Source of the DNA: Nitrospirota bacterium
GTDB taxonomy: Bacteria > Nitrospirota > Nitrospiria > Nitrospirales > Nitrospiraceae
NCBI GenBank assembly: GCA_040757595.1
Contig: JBFLWP010000007.1
Coordinates: forward strand, 8,203-72,202
Direction: 5' to 3'
Length of the DNA: 64,000 nucleotides
The position numbers and the translations under genes were made by a program. Shown here piece after piece: positions 1,858 through 52,907 of this stretch (position 1 is the stretch's first letter; every line of letters begins with the position of its first letter). The notes beneath the pieces were generated by a model. The model saw only the letters and a program-made list of their open reading frames with translations. It made no database searches and had not been told where the DNA came from.

Positions 1858-3054
1858 ATGACTCCTCTCGTCGTTTTGCAAGGCCTGAACCGCCATCGTG
1901 AGCGCCAGATGAAAGTCGGCTTGTGGCTTTCCCCCGCCCTGGCCCTGTCTGCCTGTGTTGGAATTGCCCCCCCCGCGCACCTGTTGACCGACGTGGTGGA
2001 GATCAAGGCCGGCGAACGCCACACCTGCGCCCTGACCTCGGCCGGCGGCGTGAAGTGCTGGGGGTTCAACCACGACGGGCAGTTGGGCGATGGGCGGGGG
2101 GAGGACCGCAGCCTACCCGCTGATGTGGCGGGCCTGACCAGCGGCGCGAAGGCCATTACCGCTGGCTGGCGCCATAGCTGCGCCATCACGTCGGCGGGAG
2201 GGATCATGTGCTGGGGAAACAACCACGATGGTCAGGTCGGCGATGGGAGCCAGACTGACCGCAACACCCCGCAGGACGTGGTGGGACTCCTGACGCGGGT
2301 CACCGCGATCGTGGCCGGGGAACGGCACACCTGCGCCCTGACCACGAACGGAGGCGTGAAGTGCTGGGGAAACAACCACGACGGCCAGTTGGGCGATGGC
2401 ACCAGGACGGATCGGGTGACCCCGGTGGACGTGAAAGGGTTGACGAGCGGCGTCACGGCGATCACGGCCGCATGGCGGCACACCTGCGCCTTGACCACCG
2501 CGGGGGGCGTGAAGTGCTGGGGAAACAACCACGACGGGCAATTGGGCAACGGGACGCACAACGACAGCCCCGCTCCCGTGGATGTCGTAGGACTGACGAG
2601 CGGAGTCGCCGCGATTTCGGCTCGATGGCGGCACACCTGCGCCATCACGAGCGCGGGCGGCGTCAAGTGCTGGGGGGGCAATCACGACGGCGCGGTGGGC
2701 GACGGCACCAGGACGGATCGCCCCGCGCCGGTTGACGTTGCGGGGTTGGCGAGCGGCGCCAAGGCCATAGCGAGCGGGTGGCGGCACGTCTGCGTCCTGA
2801 TGACCGACGGCAACGCGAAATGCTGGGGGAGCAACCACGAAGGACAGTTAGGCGACGGGACGGGCACGGATCAGAAGCGCCCGGTTGACGTCTTGCAAGT
2901 CCCGGGCGAGATCGTCGCCATTACCGCCGGAGGGCAACACACCTGCGCGTTGACCCGCGGCTCCGTCACTTGCTGGGGAGAGAACGAGGACGGCCAGCTA
3001 GGCGATGGGACCTTCAAGAATACCCTCGCGGCCAAGGCGGAATCGGGCGGCTGA
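1858..3054 (+). CDS. RCC1-repeat beta-propeller lipoprotein
   Basis: A 398-residue protein with seven RCC1-type repeats of about 52 residues between roughly residues 50 and 395, each carrying a variant of HTCAL-x5-VKCWG-x-NHDGQLGDG. Seven repeats fit one complete seven-bladed propeller. Each blade has a Cys pair about 10 residues apart, suggesting disulfides outside the cytoplasm. The N-terminus has a basic region, a hydrophobic core and a lipobox (LSAC), so it is probably lipid-anchored. The ATG at 1858 has GGAGG six bases upstream; the ATG at 1909 would give a shorter signal peptide but lacks a good ribosome-binding site. Function is unknown; RCC1 propellers usually bind proteins. It is divergent from the outer-membrane barrel gene. 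Confidence 0.8.
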   Translation: MTPLVVLQGLNRHRERQMKVGLWLSPALALSACVGIAPPAHLLTDVVEIKAGERHTCALTSAGGVKCWGFNHDGQLGDGRGEDRSLPADVAGLTSGAKAITAGWRHSCAITSAGGIMCWGNNHDGQVGDGSQTDRNTPQDVVGLLTRVTAIVAGERHTCALTTNGGVKCWGNNHDGQLGDGTRTDRVTPVDVKGLTSGVTAITAAWRHTCALTTAGGVKCWGNNHDGQLGNGTHNDSPAPVDVVGLTSGVAAISARWRHTCAITSAGGVKCWGGNHDGAVGDGTRTDRPAPVDVAGLASGAKAIASGWRHVCVLMTDGNAKCWGSNHEGQLGDGTGTDQKRPVDVLQVPGEIVAITAGGQHTCALTRGSVTCWGENEDGQLGDGTFKNTLAAKAESGG

Positions 3055-8870: not shown

Positions 8871-10055
8871 GTGAAGCCCCACACGCCACAGTACGTCACC
8901 GACCGGGACAGCCTGCGCGCCCTCTGCCGCCGGCTCCTGGAGCACGATCGGCTGGCCGTGGACACCGAGTTCGTGGGCGAGAGCAGCTTCGTGCCGCGCC
9001 TGGAATTGATCCAGGTCGCGGCGGGGGACCTCTGCGCCGTGCTCGACTTTCCCGCCATCGGCGCGCTCGACAGTTTCGCCGAGATCCTGGCCGAGCCCCG
9101 GATTGAGAAGGTCTTCCACGCGGGCCGCCAGGACCTGGAGCTCTTCTTCGCCCACATGGGGCAGGTGCCGACCCCCGTCTTCGACACCCAGGTCGCAGCC
9201 GCCATGGTCGGCTACGGCACGCAGGTGGCCTACGCCAGCCTGGTCGAGCGGATCACGGGAGCGAAGCTGGACAAGTCCCACACCCTGTCGAACTGGAGCC
9301 AGCGCCCGCTGACCCGCGAGCAGATCACCTACGCCCTGGAGGACGTCCAGTTCCTGCTGCCCATCCGGGAGCATCTTCAGACGCGACTCCTGTCCCTGGG
9401 CCGGCTGGATTGGGCGCGGGAGGAATTCGCCCGCCTGGGCACCCGGTTGAGCGACGGCTCGCAGGATCCCCGGCTGCGCTACCAACGGATCAAGGGATGG
9501 GAGGGACTGAAGCCCAGGGCGGCGGCCGTGTTGCGGGAGTTGGCGGCCTGGCGCGAAGAGGAAGCCCGTCGCCGGAACGTGCCGCGGGGGCGGATCGTCC
9601 GCGACGAGGGGCTCGTGGAGCTGGCCCGCCGTGCTCCTACGAGCCAGTCGGCCCTGCGGGCGATTCGGGGGCTCCATCCTTCGGAGGTCGAGCGGAACGG
9701 GGAGGCCATGCTGGCGGCGATCAAGGCCGGCTTGGCCGTTCCCCAGTCCGAATGGCCGGAGGTGCCGAAGACCGGCAGACCCGAACCGGAAGCGGCCGGG
9801 CTGGTGGATCTCCTGCAGGCGGCGCTCAAGGCCCTCGCCTCGAAAGAGCACATCGCGCCCAGCCTGCTGGCCAGTTCCGCCGATCTCCAAGCCCTGGTCG
9901 AGGCCAAGCACGAGAGGGAAACACTGGACCTTCCGATCCTGCAGGGTTGGCGGCGGGAGCTGGCCGGGGAGGCCCTGCTGGACATCCTCAGGGGCAGAAC
10001 GACCCTCAGCGTGGACCCCAAGACCGGGAAGCTCAGGCTGATGCAGCAAGGATGA
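8871..10055 (+). CDS. rnd: Ribonuclease D
   Basis: A 394-residue 3'-5' exoribonuclease that trims tRNA and other structured RNA 3' ends. The DEDDy catalytic motifs are visible: D31-T-E33 (LAVDTEFVGES), HAGRQDLELFF with the second Asp, and YALEDVQFLLPI with the Tyr and last Asp. C-terminal HRDC-type helical regions follow (about residues 200-290 and 300-380), as in E. coli RNase D (375 residues). The start is a GTG. The TGA stop lies inside the first unit of heptad array R2, which fills the gap to the convergent arsC gene. Confidence 0.88.
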   Translation: MKPHTPQYVTDRDSLRALCRRLLEHDRLAVDTEFVGESSFVPRLELIQVAAGDLCAVLDFPAIGALDSFAEILAEPRIEKVFHAGRQDLELFFAHMGQVPTPVFDTQVAAAMVGYGTQVAYASLVERITGAKLDKSHTLSNWSQRPLTREQITYALEDVQFLLPIREHLQTRLLSLGRLDWAREEFARLGTRLSDGSQDPRLRYQRIKGWEGLKPRAAAVLRELAAWREEEARRRNVPRGRIVRDEGLVELARRAPTSQSALRAIRGLHPSEVERNGEAMLAAIKAGLAVPQSEWPEVPKTGRPEPEAAGLVDLLQAALKALASKEHIAPSLLASSADLQALVEAKHERETLDLPILQGWRRELAGEALLDILRGRTTLSVDPKTGKLRLMQQG

Positions 10056-10148
10056 AGCGTGAAGTATGAATTATGAAGGATGAACGCGGAATGCTGAACG
10101 AAAGAGTTCCAGATGTTACCGTTCAGCATTCATCGTTCTGCATTCAGC
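10051..10148. repeat. Inverted heptad array R2
   Basis: The left arm has seven units (10051-10099): GATGAAG, CGTGAAG, TATGAAT, TATGAAG, GATGAAC, GCGGAAT, GCTGAAC. After a 21-base spacer the right arm has four inverted units (10121-10148): GTTCAGC, ATTCATC, GTTCTGC, ATTCAGC. The innermost units are exact reverse complements. The first unit contains the rnd stop codon, and the array ends 4 bp before the convergent arsC stop. It may act as a bidirectional 3'-end hairpin. Confidence 0.85.
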
Positions 10149-10152
10149 ATTG

Positions 10153-12828: not shown

Positions 12829-12951
12829 CGTGACGGGTGATGGGTGAAGGGTGACCTGTGCAAGACGACGCGGGGACGCGGAGACACGGAGATCGCCGCG
12901 TCGCCCCCTCGCCGTGTCTCCGCGTCGATCTCGCAACGCGTCACGTGTCAC
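12829..12951. repeat. Nested inverted heptad array R3
   Basis: Outer left arm CGTGACG, GGTGATG, GGTGAAG, GGTGACC (12829-12856); outer right arm GCGTCAC, GTGTCAC (12938-12951). Nested inside is a perfect 15-bp inverted repeat, GACGCGGAGACACGG (12875-12889) with its complement at 12912-12926. It starts 5 bp after the reductase stop and ends next to the GAAGGAG ribosome-binding site of citrate synthase. Confidence 0.8.
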
Positions 12952-42464: not shown

Positions 42465-42818
42465 ATGGAATTTTCCAAACACTTTCAGCGGGTTAAAGCA
42501 GCGGCCCGGGTCGCGTTCGCGGTCGGGCCAACAGCGGACCCGTTGACAGCCGAAGACCTGGCACTTTTGGAGAAGGTCGCCGCGACCGTTGTGGCCCGCG
42601 GCATGGCCGGTCCGGCGGTCCTGTTCCTGGAATCCGCCGGCCCCATGAATTTCCTGGGCAGCCAGGCTTTGCACTTCCTGACCCCCATCCTCGACCTCGC
42701 CTGCGAGTCCGGCCAGATCGAACGGGCGGCCCGTCTGCTCGAACGGCGCGACGCGATTCCGCGGCTCATCGCGCTCATCGAGGCCAAGTCCGATCAGGGA
42801 AAGACGCCCGCTCGATGA
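42465..42818 (+). CDS. Hypothetical protein, first gene of the GlmL operon
   Basis: A 117-residue cytosolic helical protein of unknown family. The segment VLFLESAGPMNFLGSQALHF is hydrophobic but interrupted by polar residues; it is followed by charged helices (SGQIERAARLLERRDAIPRL). It could be an amphipathic membrane-associated adaptor. The stop overlaps the glmL-like start as ATGA, so it is translationally coupled to the ATPase and probably a partner of it. No good ribosome-binding site precedes the ATG, which lies 27 bp after the -10. Confidence 0.65.
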   Translation: MEFSKHFQRVKAAARVAFAVGPTADPLTAEDLALLEKVAATVVARGMAGPAVLFLESAGPMNFLGSQALHFLTPILDLACESGQIERAARLLERRDAIPRLIALIEAKSDQGKTPAR

Positions 42819-44659
42819 TGGACTCGTCCCCGGACGTCGGACAGAAGCCGCCAGACCCTCCCCTTTCGGTGATCATCGCCACGGACTGCGGGAGCACGAC
42901 GACCAAGGCCATCCTGATCGAGAAGGTCGGGCAGGAGTACCGGCAGACCCACCGGGGCGAAGCGCCGACCACCGTGGAAGCTCCCTTCGAGGACGTCACG
43001 CGCGGGGTGCTGAACGCGTTCGCGGAGGTGGAAGAGCTGTCCGGCCGCAAAATCCTAGAGGGGGAGCGGATCATCACGCCGGCACGGGAGGAAGACGGGA
43101 AGAAGGTCGGCGTGGACATCTACGTGTCCACGAGCAGCGCGGGCGGCGGGCTGCAGATGATGGTGGCCGGCGTCGTCCAAAACATCAGCGTCGAAAGCGC
43201 GCAGCGGTGCGCGCTGGGCGCCGGCGCGATCGTCATGGACGTGCTCGCCGCCAACGACGGCCGGCTGCCCCACGAGAAAATCGAGCGCATCCGGACCCTG
43301 CGCCCGGACATGATCCTGCTGTCGGGCGGGACCGACGGCGGCACCGTCACGCACGTGATCGAGATGGCCGAGTACATCGCCGCCGCCGAGCCCCGCCCCC
43401 GCCTGGGCATGAGCTACCGGCTTCCCCTGATTTATGCCGGCAACAAGGACGCGCGCGACCGGGTGCAGGAGGTCCTGGGGGAAAAAACCGCGCTGGTCGT
43501 CACGGAGAACCTGCGCCCCGTCCCGGAGCGGGAAAACCTGGCGCCGGCGAGGACCAAGATCCACGACCTGTTCCTGGAGCACGTCATGGCCCAGGCGCCG
43601 GGGTACAAGAAGCTGATCGGCTGGGCCGGCGCGCCGATCATGCCGACCCCCGCGGCCGTGGGACTCATCATGCAGGCCATCGCGAAGCGCGACGGCCTGA
43701 ACCTGATCGGCGTGGACATCGGCGGGGCCACCACCGATGTCTTCTCCGTGTTCGACGGCCTGTTCAACCGCACCGTCAGCGCCAACCTGGGGCTGTCCTA
43801 CAGCGTCTCGAACGTGCTGGCGGAAGCCGGCCTCGCGAACATCATGCGCTGGGTGCCCTTCACGATCGAGGAGCAGGTCCTGCGCAACCGGATCAAGAAC
43901 AAGATGATCCGTCCCACGACCATCCCCCAGACGCTGGACGAGCTCCAGATCGAGCAGGCGATCGCGCGGGAAGCCCTGCGTCTGGCCCTGATCCACCACA
44001 AGTCGCTGGCGACCGGCCTCAAGGGCGTGCAGCAGGAGCGGACGATCTCGGACATCTTCGAGCAGCAGGCCACAGGCCGCACGCTGATCGACATGCTCAA
44101 GCTGGACCTCATCGTGGGCAGCGGCGGCATCCTCTCCCACGCTCCGAGACGGGTCCAGGCCATGCTCATGATGGTGGACGCCTACGAGCCGCTGGGCTTC
44201 ACCGTGATGTCCGTGGACAGCATCTTCATGATGCCGCACCTGGGCGTCCTGTCCACGGTCAGCGAGCGGGCCGCCACCGACGTGTTCGAGCGGGACTGCA
44301 TGGTGTACCTCGGCACCTGCGTCGCGCCGATCGGGCAGGGGAAGGAGGGGGACCGGTGCGCGGACTATACGATCACCTTCCAGGGTGGCCGCCCGTCGGA
44401 AACAGGCACGTTGACCTTCGGCGACTTGAAGCTTATCACCCTCGGATTGGAGGAGCGGGCCACGGTCGAGCTGAAGCCGGCCAAGCAGGTGGACCTGGGG
44501 CAGGGGAAGGGCCAGCCGGCGACCAGAGAGGTCCGGGGCGGGGTCGTGGGGCTCCTGCTGGACGGGCGGGGACGTCCGCTCCAACTGCCGGCCGACCCGC
44601 AGGCCCGCGTGAGAGCCCTGACCCGCTGGCACGAAGCGGTGAATCTCTATCCAGCGTGA
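42815..44659 (+). CDS. GlmL/MutL-family ASKHA ATPase (no mutase nearby)
   Basis: A 614-residue ATPase of the glutamate mutase L family (not DNA-repair MutL). ASKHA-fold motifs: phosphate-1 ATDCGSTTTKAILIEK near residue 25, phosphate-2 GVDIGGATTDVFSVF near 305, and the adenosine-type motif LIVGSGGILSHAP near 430. Characterised relatives reactivate coenzyme-B12 glutamate mutase. No mutase subunit or B12 gene is in this window and all following genes encode envelope proteins, so the client is probably different. Stop codon TGA lies inside the first heptad of array R4. It overlaps the upstream gene by 4 bp. Confidence 0.85.
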   Translation: MMDSSPDVGQKPPDPPLSVIIATDCGSTTTKAILIEKVGQEYRQTHRGEAPTTVEAPFEDVTRGVLNAFAEVEELSGRKILEGERIITPAREEDGKKVGVDIYVSTSSAGGGLQMMVAGVVQNISVESAQRCALGAGAIVMDVLAANDGRLPHEKIERIRTLRPDMILLSGGTDGGTVTHVIEMAEYIAAAEPRPRLGMSYRLPLIYAGNKDARDRVQEVLGEKTALVVTENLRPVPERENLAPARTKIHDLFLEHVMAQAPGYKKLIGWAGAPIMPTPAAVGLIMQAIAKRDGLNLIGVDIGGATTDVFSVFDGLFNRTVSANLGLSYSVSNVLAEAGLANIMRWVPFTIEEQVLRNRIKNKMIRPTTIPQTLDELQIEQAIAREALRLALIHHKSLATGLKGVQQERTISDIFEQQATGRTLIDMLKLDLIVGSGGILSHAPRRVQAMLMMVDAYEPLGFTVMSVDSIFMMPHLGVLSTVSERAATDVFERDCMVYLGTCVAPIGQGKEGDRCADYTITFQGGRPSETGTLTFGDLKLITLGLEERATVELKPAKQVDLGQGKGQPATREVRGGVVGLLLDGRGRPLQLPADPQARVRALTRWHEAVNLYPA

Positions 44660-44755
44660 CGGGTGACGCGTGACGGGTGACGAGTTATGAAGAGACCGTC
44701 TCAGGCTGTCGGCTTTGCGGTTTTTGCGCGTCACGCATCACGCTTCACGCATCAC
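44655..44755. repeat. Inverted heptad array R4
   Basis: Left arm CGTGACG, GGTGACG, CGTGACG, GGTGACG plus a decayed AGTTATG (44655-44689). Right arm GCGTCAC, GCATCAC, GCTTCAC, GCATCAC (44728-44755). The first unit supplies the stop codon of the GlmL-like gene; the array ends 13 bp before the next ATG. Confidence 0.85.
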
Positions 44756-44768
44756 GGTCGTTGAAGAG

Positions 44769-45902
44769 ATGGCGCATTCGTACACTCCCGGCCTCACGGT
44801 CACCGAGACGACGGTCCTGCGGAAGAAGCGGCTGCTGCCGATTCCCGGCACCGTGACGGCCCAGGTCGGGCAGGACGTGTCGTCCGAGACGGTCGTGGCC
44901 AGAACCGAGCTGGCCGGCAAGGTCCACGTCGTCAACGTGGCCAACCTGTTGGGCGCCGCGCCGGACGAGATTCGCGACTATCTCGTCAAGCGGGAAGGGG
45001 ACCGGGTCGGACGGGACGAGGTCATTGCCGAAAACAAGCCCTTCATCAAATGGTTCAAGACGGAGGTGCGCTCGCCGATCGAGGGCACGCTCGAATCCGT
45101 CTCCACGATCACCGGACAGGTGTTGCTGCGGGAGCCGCCACGCCCGTTGGAGCTCCTGTCCTACGTGGACGGAAGAGTGGTGGAGGCCCTGCCGGATCAA
45201 GGTGTCACGGTCGAGACGGCCTGCAGCCTGGTGCAGGGCATCTTCGGAATCGGCGGCGAAACCTGGGGCGAACTCGTCATGGCGGTCCAGGCCCCGGACG
45301 AGCCGCTGACGCAAGCCCATCTGAAGCCGGAGATGCGGGGCAAGATCGTGGTGGGCGGCTCGTTCCTCGGCGCCGACGCCATGTCCCGCGCCAAGGCCGT
45401 GGGCGCGGCCGCCCTGGTCGTCGGCGGCATCCACGACAAGGACCTGCGGGAGTTGCTCGGCTACGACCTGGGCGTCGCCATCACCGGCACCGAACGGGTC
45501 GGGTTCACCCTCGTCATCACGGAAGGGTTCGGGAAGATTCCCATGGCCGCCAAGGCCTTCGCGCTCCTGTCACGGCACGCCGGCCAGAAGGCCTCGGTGT
45601 CCGGCGCCACGCAGATTCGGGCCGGGGTCATCCGTCCGGAGATCATCATCCCGTCACCCGTCACCCGTCACCCATCTCCGGACTTTGGGAAGGGCGAGGG
45701 GGAACGCGGGGGCCTTCGCATCGGCGACCAGGTTCGCGTCATCCGCGACCCCCTCTTCGGCAGGATCGGACAGGTCAAGGCGCTTCCCCATGACCTCAAG
45801 CAGATCGAGACCGAGAGCCACGTGCGCGTCCTCGAAGTCGAGTTCGCCGACCGCACGACCGCGGTCATCCCGCGAGCCAACGTCGAGCTCATCGAAGGCT
45901 GA
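44769..45902 (+). CDS. Hypothetical protein with barrel-sandwich-like and KOW-like regions
   Basis: A 377-residue cytosolic protein. The N-terminal ~110 residues (TVTAQVGQDVSSETVVAR, then EVRSPIEGTLESVSTITGQ) look like two lipoyl/RnfC-type barrel-sandwich halves, but without a modifiable lysine motif. The middle (GKIVVGGSFLGADAMSRA, LGYDLGVAITGTERVGFT) is Gly-rich alpha/beta. The C-terminus (about 320-377, GDQVRVIRDPLFGRIGQV) resembles a KOW/SH3-like barrel. Codons for PSPVTRHPSP just before it come from heptad array R5. The domain assignments are by eye. GAAGAG lies close to the ATG. It is third in the operon and absent from pathways I recognise. Confidence 0.72.
   Translation: MAHSYTPGLTVTETTVLRKKRLLPIPGTVTAQVGQDVSSETVVARTELAGKVHVVNVANLLGAAPDEIRDYLVKREGDRVGRDEVIAENKPFIKWFKTEVRSPIEGTLESVSTITGQVLLREPPRPLELLSYVDGRVVEALPDQGVTVETACSLVQGIFGIGGETWGELVMAVQAPDEPLTQAHLKPEMRGKIVVGGSFLGADAMSRAKAVGAAALVVGGIHDKDLRELLGYDLGVAITGTERVGFTLVITEGFGKIPMAAKAFALLSRHAGQKASVSGATQIRAGVIRPEIIIPSPVTRHPSPDFGKGEGERGGLRIGDQVRVIRDPLFGRIGQVKALPHDLKQIETESHVRVLEVEFADRTTAVIPRANVELIEG
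45651..45678. repeat. Single-armed heptad array R5 inside a coding sequence
   Basis: Four units, CCGTCAC three times then CCATCTC, within the 44769 gene. They are read in frame and encode a Pro/Ser/Thr-rich linker between the middle and KOW-like regions. No clear inverted partner arm is seen. Confidence 0.7.
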
Positions 45903-47822: not shown

Positions 47823-47823
47823 C

Positions 47824-47908
47824 GTGAGACGCGAGACGTTAGACGTCAGACGAGGGAACAAAGGGTCGAGATCCGTCACGTTTCACGCCTCACGCTTCAC
47901 GTCTCACG
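47824..47908. repeat. Inverted heptad array R6
   Basis: Left arm GTGAGAC, GCGAGAC, GTTAGAC, GTCAGAC (47824-47851). Right arm CGTCACG, TTTCACG, CCTCACG, CTTCACG, TCTCACG (47874-47908). It starts one base after a stop codon and ends 10 bp before the next ATG, filling the gap within the operon. Confidence 0.85.
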
Positions 47909-47918
47909 TGGCTTCGCG

Positions 47919-51539: not shown

Positions 51540-51626
51540 GGGCTAGGGGCACGGGGCTAGAGGCTAGAGATGACGAATTTGCCGGTCTTTTCTCCGCCCC
51601 CTAGCCCCTAACCTCTAGCCCCTTGC
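51540..51626. repeat. Inverted heptad array R8
   Basis: Left arm GGGCTAG, GGGCACG, GGGCTAG, AGGCTAG (51540-51567). Right arm CCCTAGC, CCCTAAC, CTCTAGC, CCCTTGC (51599-51626). The right arm covers the last codons and the TAG stop of the MFS gene, so the array reaches into its coding sequence. Confidence 0.85.
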
Positions 51627-52907
51627 CTTCAGGCACAGCCCGTCCCCCGGCTTGATCCTGAGCCACATGAGCCCCCCGAGGAGCGCGACCGACGCAGCCA
51701 CGCCCAGCGCCGCGGCCCAGCCCACCTGCTCGGCCAGCCACGGGGTCAACATCGGGGAGAGGCTGCCTCCGAGATTGGCGCCGGTGTTCATCAGCCCCGA
51801 GAGGGTGCCGGCGTGGGGCTGGGAGAGGTCCACGGTGGAGGACCAGTAGGCCCCGGCCGCGAAGTAGAGCCAGCCGGCCCCAAGCGAGAGGAGCGTAATC
51901 GCGAAGGAGGGGGATTCGAGGAACGCCCCGAACAGGATGGACAGGGAGGAGAGCAGCATCCCGGCCGCCCCTACGAGCGCGCGGCCCCGGTTCACGCCCC
52001 ACGTGGCCGCCAGCCGGTCCGTCGCCCAACCGCCCAGCGGGCAGAAGAGCGTGATCGCCGCGAAAGGAGCTGCGGCGAACCAGGCGCCTCGGAGCACCCC
52101 GAACCCGCGGACGTTGACCAGGTAGAGGTAGAACCAGGACAGGTAGACGTAGGCCACGTACCCCAGACAGGTGTAACTCAGCACCAGCCACCAGACCGTC
52201 GGGGTTCGCGCGAACGTCCTCCACGGCACGGCCTGTCCAGGCCGGTCCTGAGCCGGACCCGCCTCGATCAGCGCCGCCTCGGCTCGATTGACGCGGGGAT
52301 GATCCCCGGGCCGATCCCTGGCGTAGAAGAACCACAGAGCCGCCACCAGCGCGCCGACGCCTCCGGCGAGATAAAACGCCATCCGCCATCCGAAGTTCAC
52401 CATGATCCAGGCCGTGAGCGGCGGAGTCAGGGCCGAGCCGACACCCAGCCCGCCGATGGCGATCCCGATCCCCAGCCCCCGCTCGCCCGGCGCCAGCCAG
52501 TTGGCCACGGCCCGGTTGAAGTTGGGGAGCGCCGCCGCCTCGCCAGCGCCCATGAGGAACCGGACCAGCACCAGTGCTCCAAGCCCCCCCACCAGCCCGG
52601 CGATCGGCAGCGTGGCCGCCACGGCGGTGAGCGCGGTGAACAGGGACCACCAGAGCATCGCGAGCGTCAAGACAAGCCGCGGGCCCCATCGGTCCCCGAG
52701 CCATCCCCCCGGAATCTGGAAGAGGGCATAGCCCAACACGAAGGCCGAAAACGCCTGGCCCATCTCCAGCTCGGTCAAGCCCAAGGCCGGCATCATCTGC
52801 CTGGCCGTCACGGAGATGTTCACCCGGTCGACGTAGGTGACGACGCTGATGGCCAGCAGGAGGGCCAGGATCGTCCAGCGGGTATGAGACGGTCGAAGAG
52901 CATCCAT
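51615..52907 (-). CDS. MFS transporter, anion:cation symporter (ACS)-like
   Basis: A 430-residue transporter with about 12 helices. It has the early signature VVTYVDRVNISVTARQM, the MFS loop GGWLGDRWGPRLVL, FLMGAGEAAALPNFNRA and GWRMAFYLAGG, all typical of ACS-type carriers for organic anions such as hexuronates or tartrate; the substrate is not known. The ATG at 52907 has no ribosome-binding site and lies only about 6 bases from the predicted transcript start, so a leaderless mRNA is possible; a GTG at 52964 is the alternative. The last codons lie in heptad array R8. Confidence 0.88.
   Translation of the reverse strand: MDALRPSHTRWTILALLLAISVVTYVDRVNISVTARQMMPALGLTELEMGQAFSAFVLGYALFQIPGGWLGDRWGPRLVLTLAMLWWSLFTALTAVAATLPIAGLVGGLGALVLVRFLMGAGEAAALPNFNRAVANWLAPGERGLGIGIAIGGLGVGSALTPPLTAWIMVNFGWRMAFYLAGGVGALVAALWFFYARDRPGDHPRVNRAEAALIEAGPAQDRPGQAVPWRTFARTPTVWWLVLSYTCLGYVAYVYLSWFYLYLVNVRGFGVLRGAWFAAAPFAAITLFCPLGGWATDRLAATWGVNRGRALVGAAGMLLSSLSILFGAFLESPSFAITLLSLGAGWLYFAAGAYWSSTVDLSQPHAGTLSGLMNTGANLGGSLSPMLTPWLAEQVGWAAALGVAASVALLGGLMWLRIKPGDGLCLKARG

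Follow-up and report, generated by a model that had tools for sequence, protein, structure and literature searches.

An in-frame heptanucleotide array in the variable linker of a KOW-like gene from a Nitrospirota bacterium, and related arrays in the linkers of other proteins

The window, by which is meant the whole 64,000-nt stretch of DNA analysed here, contains a gene for a protein of 377 residues that carries a short tandem array of 7-nt units (heptads) within its coding sequence. The gene is preceded by a two-armed heptad element, and further inverted pairs of heptad arms are present elsewhere in the window. The features that are relevant to the analysis are given below.

42815-44659, + strand: MutL/GlmL-like gene (PF13941), the upstream neighbour, whose TGA stop falls within unit one of the element that follows
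44656-44682, - strand: left arm of the neighbouring element (GTGA on the + strand)
44727-44756, + strand: right arm of the neighbouring element (TCAC), ending just before the ATG at 44769
44769-45902, + strand: array-holding gene, 377 aa, with a KOW-like C-terminal region
45651-45678, + strand: in-gene heptad array, three CCGTCAC units and one CCATCTC, residues 295-304
45679-45718, + strand: remainder of the hypervariable linker, Gly/Glu-rich, end approximate
47823-47909, no strand assigned: inverted heptad pair (GTGAGAC-type arm and TCACGYC-type arm), two genes downstream
12830-12951, no strand assigned: inverted pair of TCAC type
10048-10151, no strand assigned: inverted arms of another unit type (ATGAAGG / TTCAGCA)
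51540-51627, no strand assigned: inverted arms of CTAGRGG / CCTAGCC type

As described in the original prediction, three exact CCGTCAC units (45651-45671) and one variant unit, CCATCTC, which ends at 45678, lie inside the gene that starts at 44769; Tandem Repeats Finder reports 45650-45673 as a repeat of period 7 with 3.4 copies and a 100% match. The array is read in frame, with residues 295-304 being PSPVTRHPSP, followed by DFGKGEGERGG. The claim that the array precedes a KOW-like domain was also borne out, with a match to KOW (PF00467) at residues 319-337 that scores 15.0 bits against a Pfam cut-off of 22.3, so that 'KOW-like' is a fair label and nothing stronger. An alternative TTG start of the gene is possible at 44715, from which the frame would run through the neighbouring arm. 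In the AlphaFold2 model of the 377-aa protein (29 sequences, mean pLDDT 80), the array sits where a strand ends (residues 291-295) and where model confidence is very low (pLDDT below 50 at residues 299-312). The next strands start at residue 321, and the low-confidence stretch beside the array falls between two better-modelled regions. The linker that holds the array is hypervariable and, in the model, of low predicted order. In the genome of the window, CCGTCACCCGTCACC is present at two loci only, namely the array described here and C3:46822-46836. On the template (minus) strand, window positions 45650-45673 read GGGTGACGGGTGACGGGTGACGGG, which is a canonical G-quadruplex motif (G3N4).

The element between the upstream neighbour and the array gene (44656-44756) has a predicted RNA fold of -52.3 kcal/mol, with a z-score of -2.82 that was equalled by one of 200 shuffles. 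The loop of the 12830-12951 element contains a second inverted repeat, GCGGGGACGCGGAGACACGG ... CCGTGTCTCCGCGTC, at window positions 12866-12927. Window positions 2007-2756 are occupied by tandem repeats, about 153 and 306 bp long, the sequence of which we take to resemble RCC1-like repeats. Neither a known RNA family at the gathering threshold nor a tRNA was found in the window.

The heptads are far more frequent than would be expected by chance. The window has 29 matches to CCGTCAC by itself, compared with 14.4 expected and with 25 as the highest value in 100 shuffles, and TCACNNNTCAC is found in it 20 times compared with 1.8 expected. In the genome to which the window belongs, TCACNNNTCACNNNTCAC has 440 matches (overlapping), in comparison with two for a reversed-pattern control. 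Shuffling the codons of 935 called genes 200 times yielded a triplet of units on no occasion, whereas the real genes hold nine triplets in the TCAC sense and five in the GTGA sense. A chance origin of the array was rejected, since the codon shuffles never produced a triplet.

The organisation of the family was surveyed in 924 kb of sequence (the window and 860 kb from three contigs), with genes called by a simple home-made codon-model caller, the boundaries of which are approximate. Arrays of at least three units numbered 59, of which 31 were intergenic and a total of 52 were either outside genes or over a called gene edge. Their orientation is biased. All 15 arrays that span the 3' end of a gene do so in the GTGA sense, and a further six span a called 5' end, also in the GTGA sense; in each of these six cases the called start is the GTG of a unit, and these starts are therefore possibly wrong. 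Six arrays lie inside genes in the TCAC sense, three of them within 23-43 nt of the called start and three well inside, the latter being those of the present gene, an Lhr-like helicase gene and an RqcH/NFACT gene. The single in-gene array in the GTGA sense (one of 59) ends exactly at the stop codon.

The arrays have, in addition, a paired architecture. Where neighbouring arrays are less than 150 nt apart, 31 of 32 cases consist of a GTGA arm, a loop and a TCAC arm, with loops of 26-115 nt. No 9-mer is present in more than two of these 31 loops, and a mobile element with a conserved core is thus unsupported. In the 22 of 31 pairs with the left gene on the + strand, the start of the left arm falls within a range from 17 nt before to 21 nt after the last base of that gene. 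In the 18 pairs with the right gene on the + strand, the right arm ends 8-16 nt before the called start in nine, and a called gene overlaps the right arm in four. Moreover, at a threshold of 17 of 21 matches, the same 924 kb contains 75 regions with a periodicity at lag 7 (14 of them wholly in genes) and 30 at lag 14, compared with between none and five at lags 4, 5, 8, 10, 11 and 13, and 7, 10, 8 and 6 at the codon lags 6, 9, 12 and 15, respectively. TCACNNN is one unit family among many, others being TATGGCG, TTTTGAG, TCAGTTT and CTCTCGCC. At three sites in G000 (C1:17627-17705, C1:217241-217325 and C2:89972-90061) there are facing arms with wholly different units, of the TTTTGAG, TATGGCG and TGAACGC types, mostly outside called genes.

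The TCAC triplet was found in 42 of 61 genomes, and the named relatives are mostly Nitrospira and Nitrospirota assemblies. Triplets are well above the control in many, albeit not all, genomes of the same family, the exceptions being G001, G003 and G032, which are without the triplet, and G011, which has fewer than its control. There are almost no triplets in other families of the order, except in G044, a genome of the same order and another family, with 80 matches to the TCAC triplet and none for the control; triplets are nearly absent from the other members of the G044 family. Across the phylum, the four-unit pattern is present in 74 of 198 genomes, with its maximum in the window's genome (188 versus 0 for the control). 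Outside the family, several genomes have counts close to those of their controls (for example G084, 49 versus a control of 63), and the four-unit pattern is above the control in G044 (51 versus 0), G173 (14 versus 0), G162 (11 versus 0) and G226 (18 versus 4). Three consecutive TCAGNNN units form a second pattern that is also widespread in the family.

Homologues of the array gene were collected from 110 loci, comprising 30 of 45 matches from one search and 80 of 228 relatives from another, and these gave 100 distinct homologues including the window's own; the 60 relative genomes examined contained none of the same genus. The original prediction had suggested checking whether relatives lack the linker; this was not so, as all 100 distinct homologues have a linker at the place of the array, with a length of 23-34 residues between fixed anchors (28 residues here). 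A TCAC pair occurs, among these 100, in the linker of the window only. A linker with period 7 is absent in 98 of the 100, and the one further homologue that has such a linker, L048, is G-rich in this region. Linker residues differ between the homologues, and distant homologues do not conserve the residues encoded here; the aligned homologues share an open, conserved reading frame to either side of the linker. Two array-less homologues among the nearest relatives, L035 and L038, have linkers of 28 residues as here, and consequently a net insertion is not visible in this gene. Mean conservation at the single array of the KOW gene is 0.35, in comparison with 0.78 for random windows. The heptads are special to the lineage of the window; the linker itself is not new.

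The Gly/Glu stretch that follows the array might, at a guess, be a second repeat, G-rich and now decayed, of the kind seen in the L037 and L048 linkers. The G-rich repeat of these two linkers (at most two mismatches) has 27 matches versus 16 for the control in the L037 genome, 19 versus 4 in the L048 genome, 59 versus 16 in G002 and 7 versus 3 in the window's own genome. A dispersed G-rich repeat behind the L037 and L048 linkers is weakly indicated.

The recurrence of arrays within genes was followed in RqcH/NFACT, the name of which is supported by Pfam, and in a second gene that, as read from its sequence, appears to encode an Lhr-like helicase. The RqcH sample consisted of 30 loci and seven new ones (37 in total, of which L213 is partial with a run of N). 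The Lhr-like sample consisted of 37 loci, some of them gene fragments, from which L268 (a repeat of L264) and L270 (a repeat of L260) were dropped to leave 35; this set is without L242, L243 and the weak or short matches L244-L247, L265-L267 and L271-L274. Conservation figures were obtained without L213 (skipped) and L242 (length mismatch).

Arrays are present in nine of the 37 RqcH loci, and all nine lie in a single linker before the NFACT-R domain. Their units include TCACCCR (own genome, L189 and L190), CAGCACY (L191), TTCAGCR (L192), TCACGCC (L213) and CCGTCAG (L249), in addition to others. Three unit families are thus accommodated in one linker length in L188 (the window's own genome), L189, L191 and L192, and the array-less L194 and L198 match this length, which means that a simple insertion is not visible. 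In genus g8, L190 carries the RqcH array and its congener L248 an eroded version, and in genus g22 the array is present in L250, with none in L194 at the threshold used. L191 and L213 belong to the same genus and have different RqcH units; their flanks are 81 and 88% identical and their linkers 68%.

In the Lhr-like helicase, 17 of 35 loci carry arrays, 41 in total, and these are confined to five places, which are near residues 227-243, 615-629, 970-990, 1086-1111 and 1370 of the window's own genome's protein. Four arrays are present in this genome's own helicase gene and four at matching sites in G016 (L219), with different units at three sites and units of the TCAC type in both genes at the fourth. 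The first of the five places has 50 residues here, in comparison with 30-31 in 10 of 22 relatives and 37-78 in the others; this is the only helicase site with a clear difference in linker length. Two inverted heptad arms lie within the Lhr-like coding sequence of L223 (773-887), L224 (3098-3175) and L225 (3296-3383), with L224 being the weakest case. Lags other than 7 and 14 gave no loci for RqcH and between none and one region for the helicase. Mean conservation at the arrays is 0.24 for RqcH (six arrays) and 0.20 for Lhr (25 arrays), compared with 0.64 for random windows in both, and 1-9% of random windows in the same genes are as poorly conserved as the array sites. RqcH and the Lhr-like helicase provide strong support for the general claim of heptad entry into genes at variable linkers. 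The more specific suggestion that they enter at linkers between domains was sustained in part: the recurrence in RqcH and Lhr and the poorly conserved columns speak for it, but no net insertion is seen in the present gene.

The strand on which an array is read appears to be constrained by its stop codons. RqcH and Lhr together contribute 50 distinct arrays inside genes. All three sense frames are free of stops in 43 of these arrays, and the other seven have at least one closed sense frame; on the antisense strand, every frame is closed in 29 arrays and every frame is open in 13. Openness in the frame that is used is given by construction, and the informative part is the contrast between the strands. 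Of the intergenic arrays, 40 were examined likewise, with closure on the + strand in 14 and on the - strand in 19. Because seven is not a multiple of three, a TGA-bearing (GTGA) arm closes three frames within three units, and this three-frame closure, as opposed to the open complement, leads to stop-bearing arms at the ends of genes and stop-free arms inside them. Nevertheless, with 13 of 50 arrays open in all antisense frames, the stop rule is not general to every unit family, and an all-frame stop function for every heptad family was rejected.

Heptad arrays, including those within genes, are already known from other bacteria. Surveys of long simple-sequence repeats exist, and STRR repeats are known in cyanobacteria. 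Here, period 7 is over-represented and concentrated outside genes, as in heptanucleotide simple-sequence repeats. In marine Beggiatoaceae, TAACTGA repeats are tandem 7-nt units that are mostly intergenic; the orientation that provides stops in three frames is described only at the ends of ORFs, and the other orientation is also found inside ORFs, mostly at the periphery of the protein (PMC4679880, available sections). The arrays described here are similar in that they are mostly intergenic, with six of seven inside arrays in the TCAC sense and 15 of 15 3'-end arrays in the GTGA sense. They differ in that the TAACTGA unit is invariant and, in the sections available, repeated directly with one indirect exception, whereas here there are many unit families and inverted pairs. 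Furthermore, the same internal linkers are hit here in different genera, and the TAACTGA unit itself is absent, the units being TCACNNN and many others. In Geobacter metallireducens, heptads occur within genes, sometimes several per gene, and there are paired inverted arrays, with other classes paired on opposite strands at variable distance (PMC2700814, in the portion available). The units of Geobacter metallireducens are different from those described here and are read as regulatory, and the available portion of that paper does not compare a single gene site between genera.

The GGGNATC and GGGGAYT heptads of Xanthomonas and Nostoc prefer four units and lie near stop codons on one strand, some of them overlapping the stop (PMC4692102, available text). 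These units form G-quadruplexes, whereas a motif of four G3 tracts is present here in three of the 59 arrays of at least three units, the present array among them, and the G-quadruplex was rejected as a family-defining property. Rickettsia palindromic elements and bacterial MITEs are found between genes and in frame inside conserved proteins, and the 155-bp form of the Correia element, which has stops in all frames, is almost wholly outside ORFs (PMC2229807, available text). The present arrays are like the Rickettsia elements in being in frame inside conserved proteins and absent from relatives. However, the Rickettsia elements have a fixed sequence, whereas the loops here show no relationship to one another and the elements have just period, symmetry and site in common, and a fixed, alignable element of about 100-150 nt, as in coding MITEs, was not found. 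Nematomorph mitochondria contain long coding palindromes which, in the available text, are not restricted to variable regions (PMC6649704). Among the literature matches listed, there was no report of heptads in Nitrospira-type genomes, which is no proof of absence, and no report of the same protein linkers rewritten with different heptads.

The array in the KOW-like gene is probably a stop-free arm, or the remnant of one, of the mainly intergenic heptad elements of this lineage, which was captured in a tolerant linker. These elements often have two inverted arms, with about two to five 7-nt units each, on either side of an unconserved loop, and are placed close behind the stop of one gene and often close before the next start. 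A TGA-bearing arm can be tolerated at the 3' end of a gene, to which it provides the stop, and the opposite strand can be read through. Block arrival from another copy, by ectopic conversion or template switching, would be likelier than stepwise growth, because a single 7-nt step shifts the frame. Captured arrays would persist where the protein tolerates many sequences, would decay by point substitution and could later be replaced by another heptad family, with the array being near-neutral for the protein. An unsystematic look revealed neither a donor copy nor an insertion mark nor a transposase.

An alternative that we consider unlikely, albeit deserving of weight, is slippage in place, whereby a chance stretch resembling CCGTCAC grew by 21-nt steps or by compensating indels, with no donor. 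The identity of the array units is as expected from recent slippage, the equal linker lengths fit small changes in place, and many bacteria have heptads as their most common long repeats, with slippage having been proposed for them (PMC4679880, available sections). On the other hand, single 7-nt steps would shift the frame, the five helicase places and the one RqcH linker hold several unit families across genera, and the presence of both inverted arms inside some helicase genes is not a product of plain slippage. A functional site, at which heptads would bind a protein or form a structure such as a template-strand G-quadruplex and thereby regulate the gene, appears improbable. The G3N4 quadruplex motif on the template strand and the interpretation of Geobacter heptad elements in and between genes as regulatory (PMC2700814, in the portion available) are in its favour, but few arrays carry the motif, the array is in none of the other 99 distinct homologues and the in-gene array folds as RNA no better than shuffles (z-score -0.31). 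It is very improbable that selection favoured a Pro/Ser/Thr/Arg linker and that the repeat arose incidentally from codon usage: the place is indeed a variable linker of low predicted order, but this explanation was rejected because the period of 7 nt is not a multiple of three, codon shuffles never give a triplet, and the linker residues of other homologues differ, with the peptide kept in none of them. That the array is an artefact, either intergenic or misassembled, is hardly credible even for a draft assembly in 36 contigs, since the flanks to either side of the array share an open, conserved frame and arrays of this kind are found again in assemblies made independently.

It is possible, and is put forward tentatively, that an ongoing process in these bacteria generates period-7 DNA as such, with inverted pairs placed between genes and one arm or a pair of arms placed inside genes, and that the same linkers are rewritten with the current heptad family of the lineage; period, symmetry and site would then be inherited, and not sequence. 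If this is true, fossil heptad arrays would account for a sizeable share of the flexible linkers that these proteomes contain. The linkers of RqcH/NFACT and the Lhr-like helicase are natural traps, with heptads that differ between genera at the same site and alignable protein on both sides, which makes origin, spread and decay testable by comparison of close strains. Taken at this strength, the arrays suggest a possible route from non-coding repeat DNA to protein linker.
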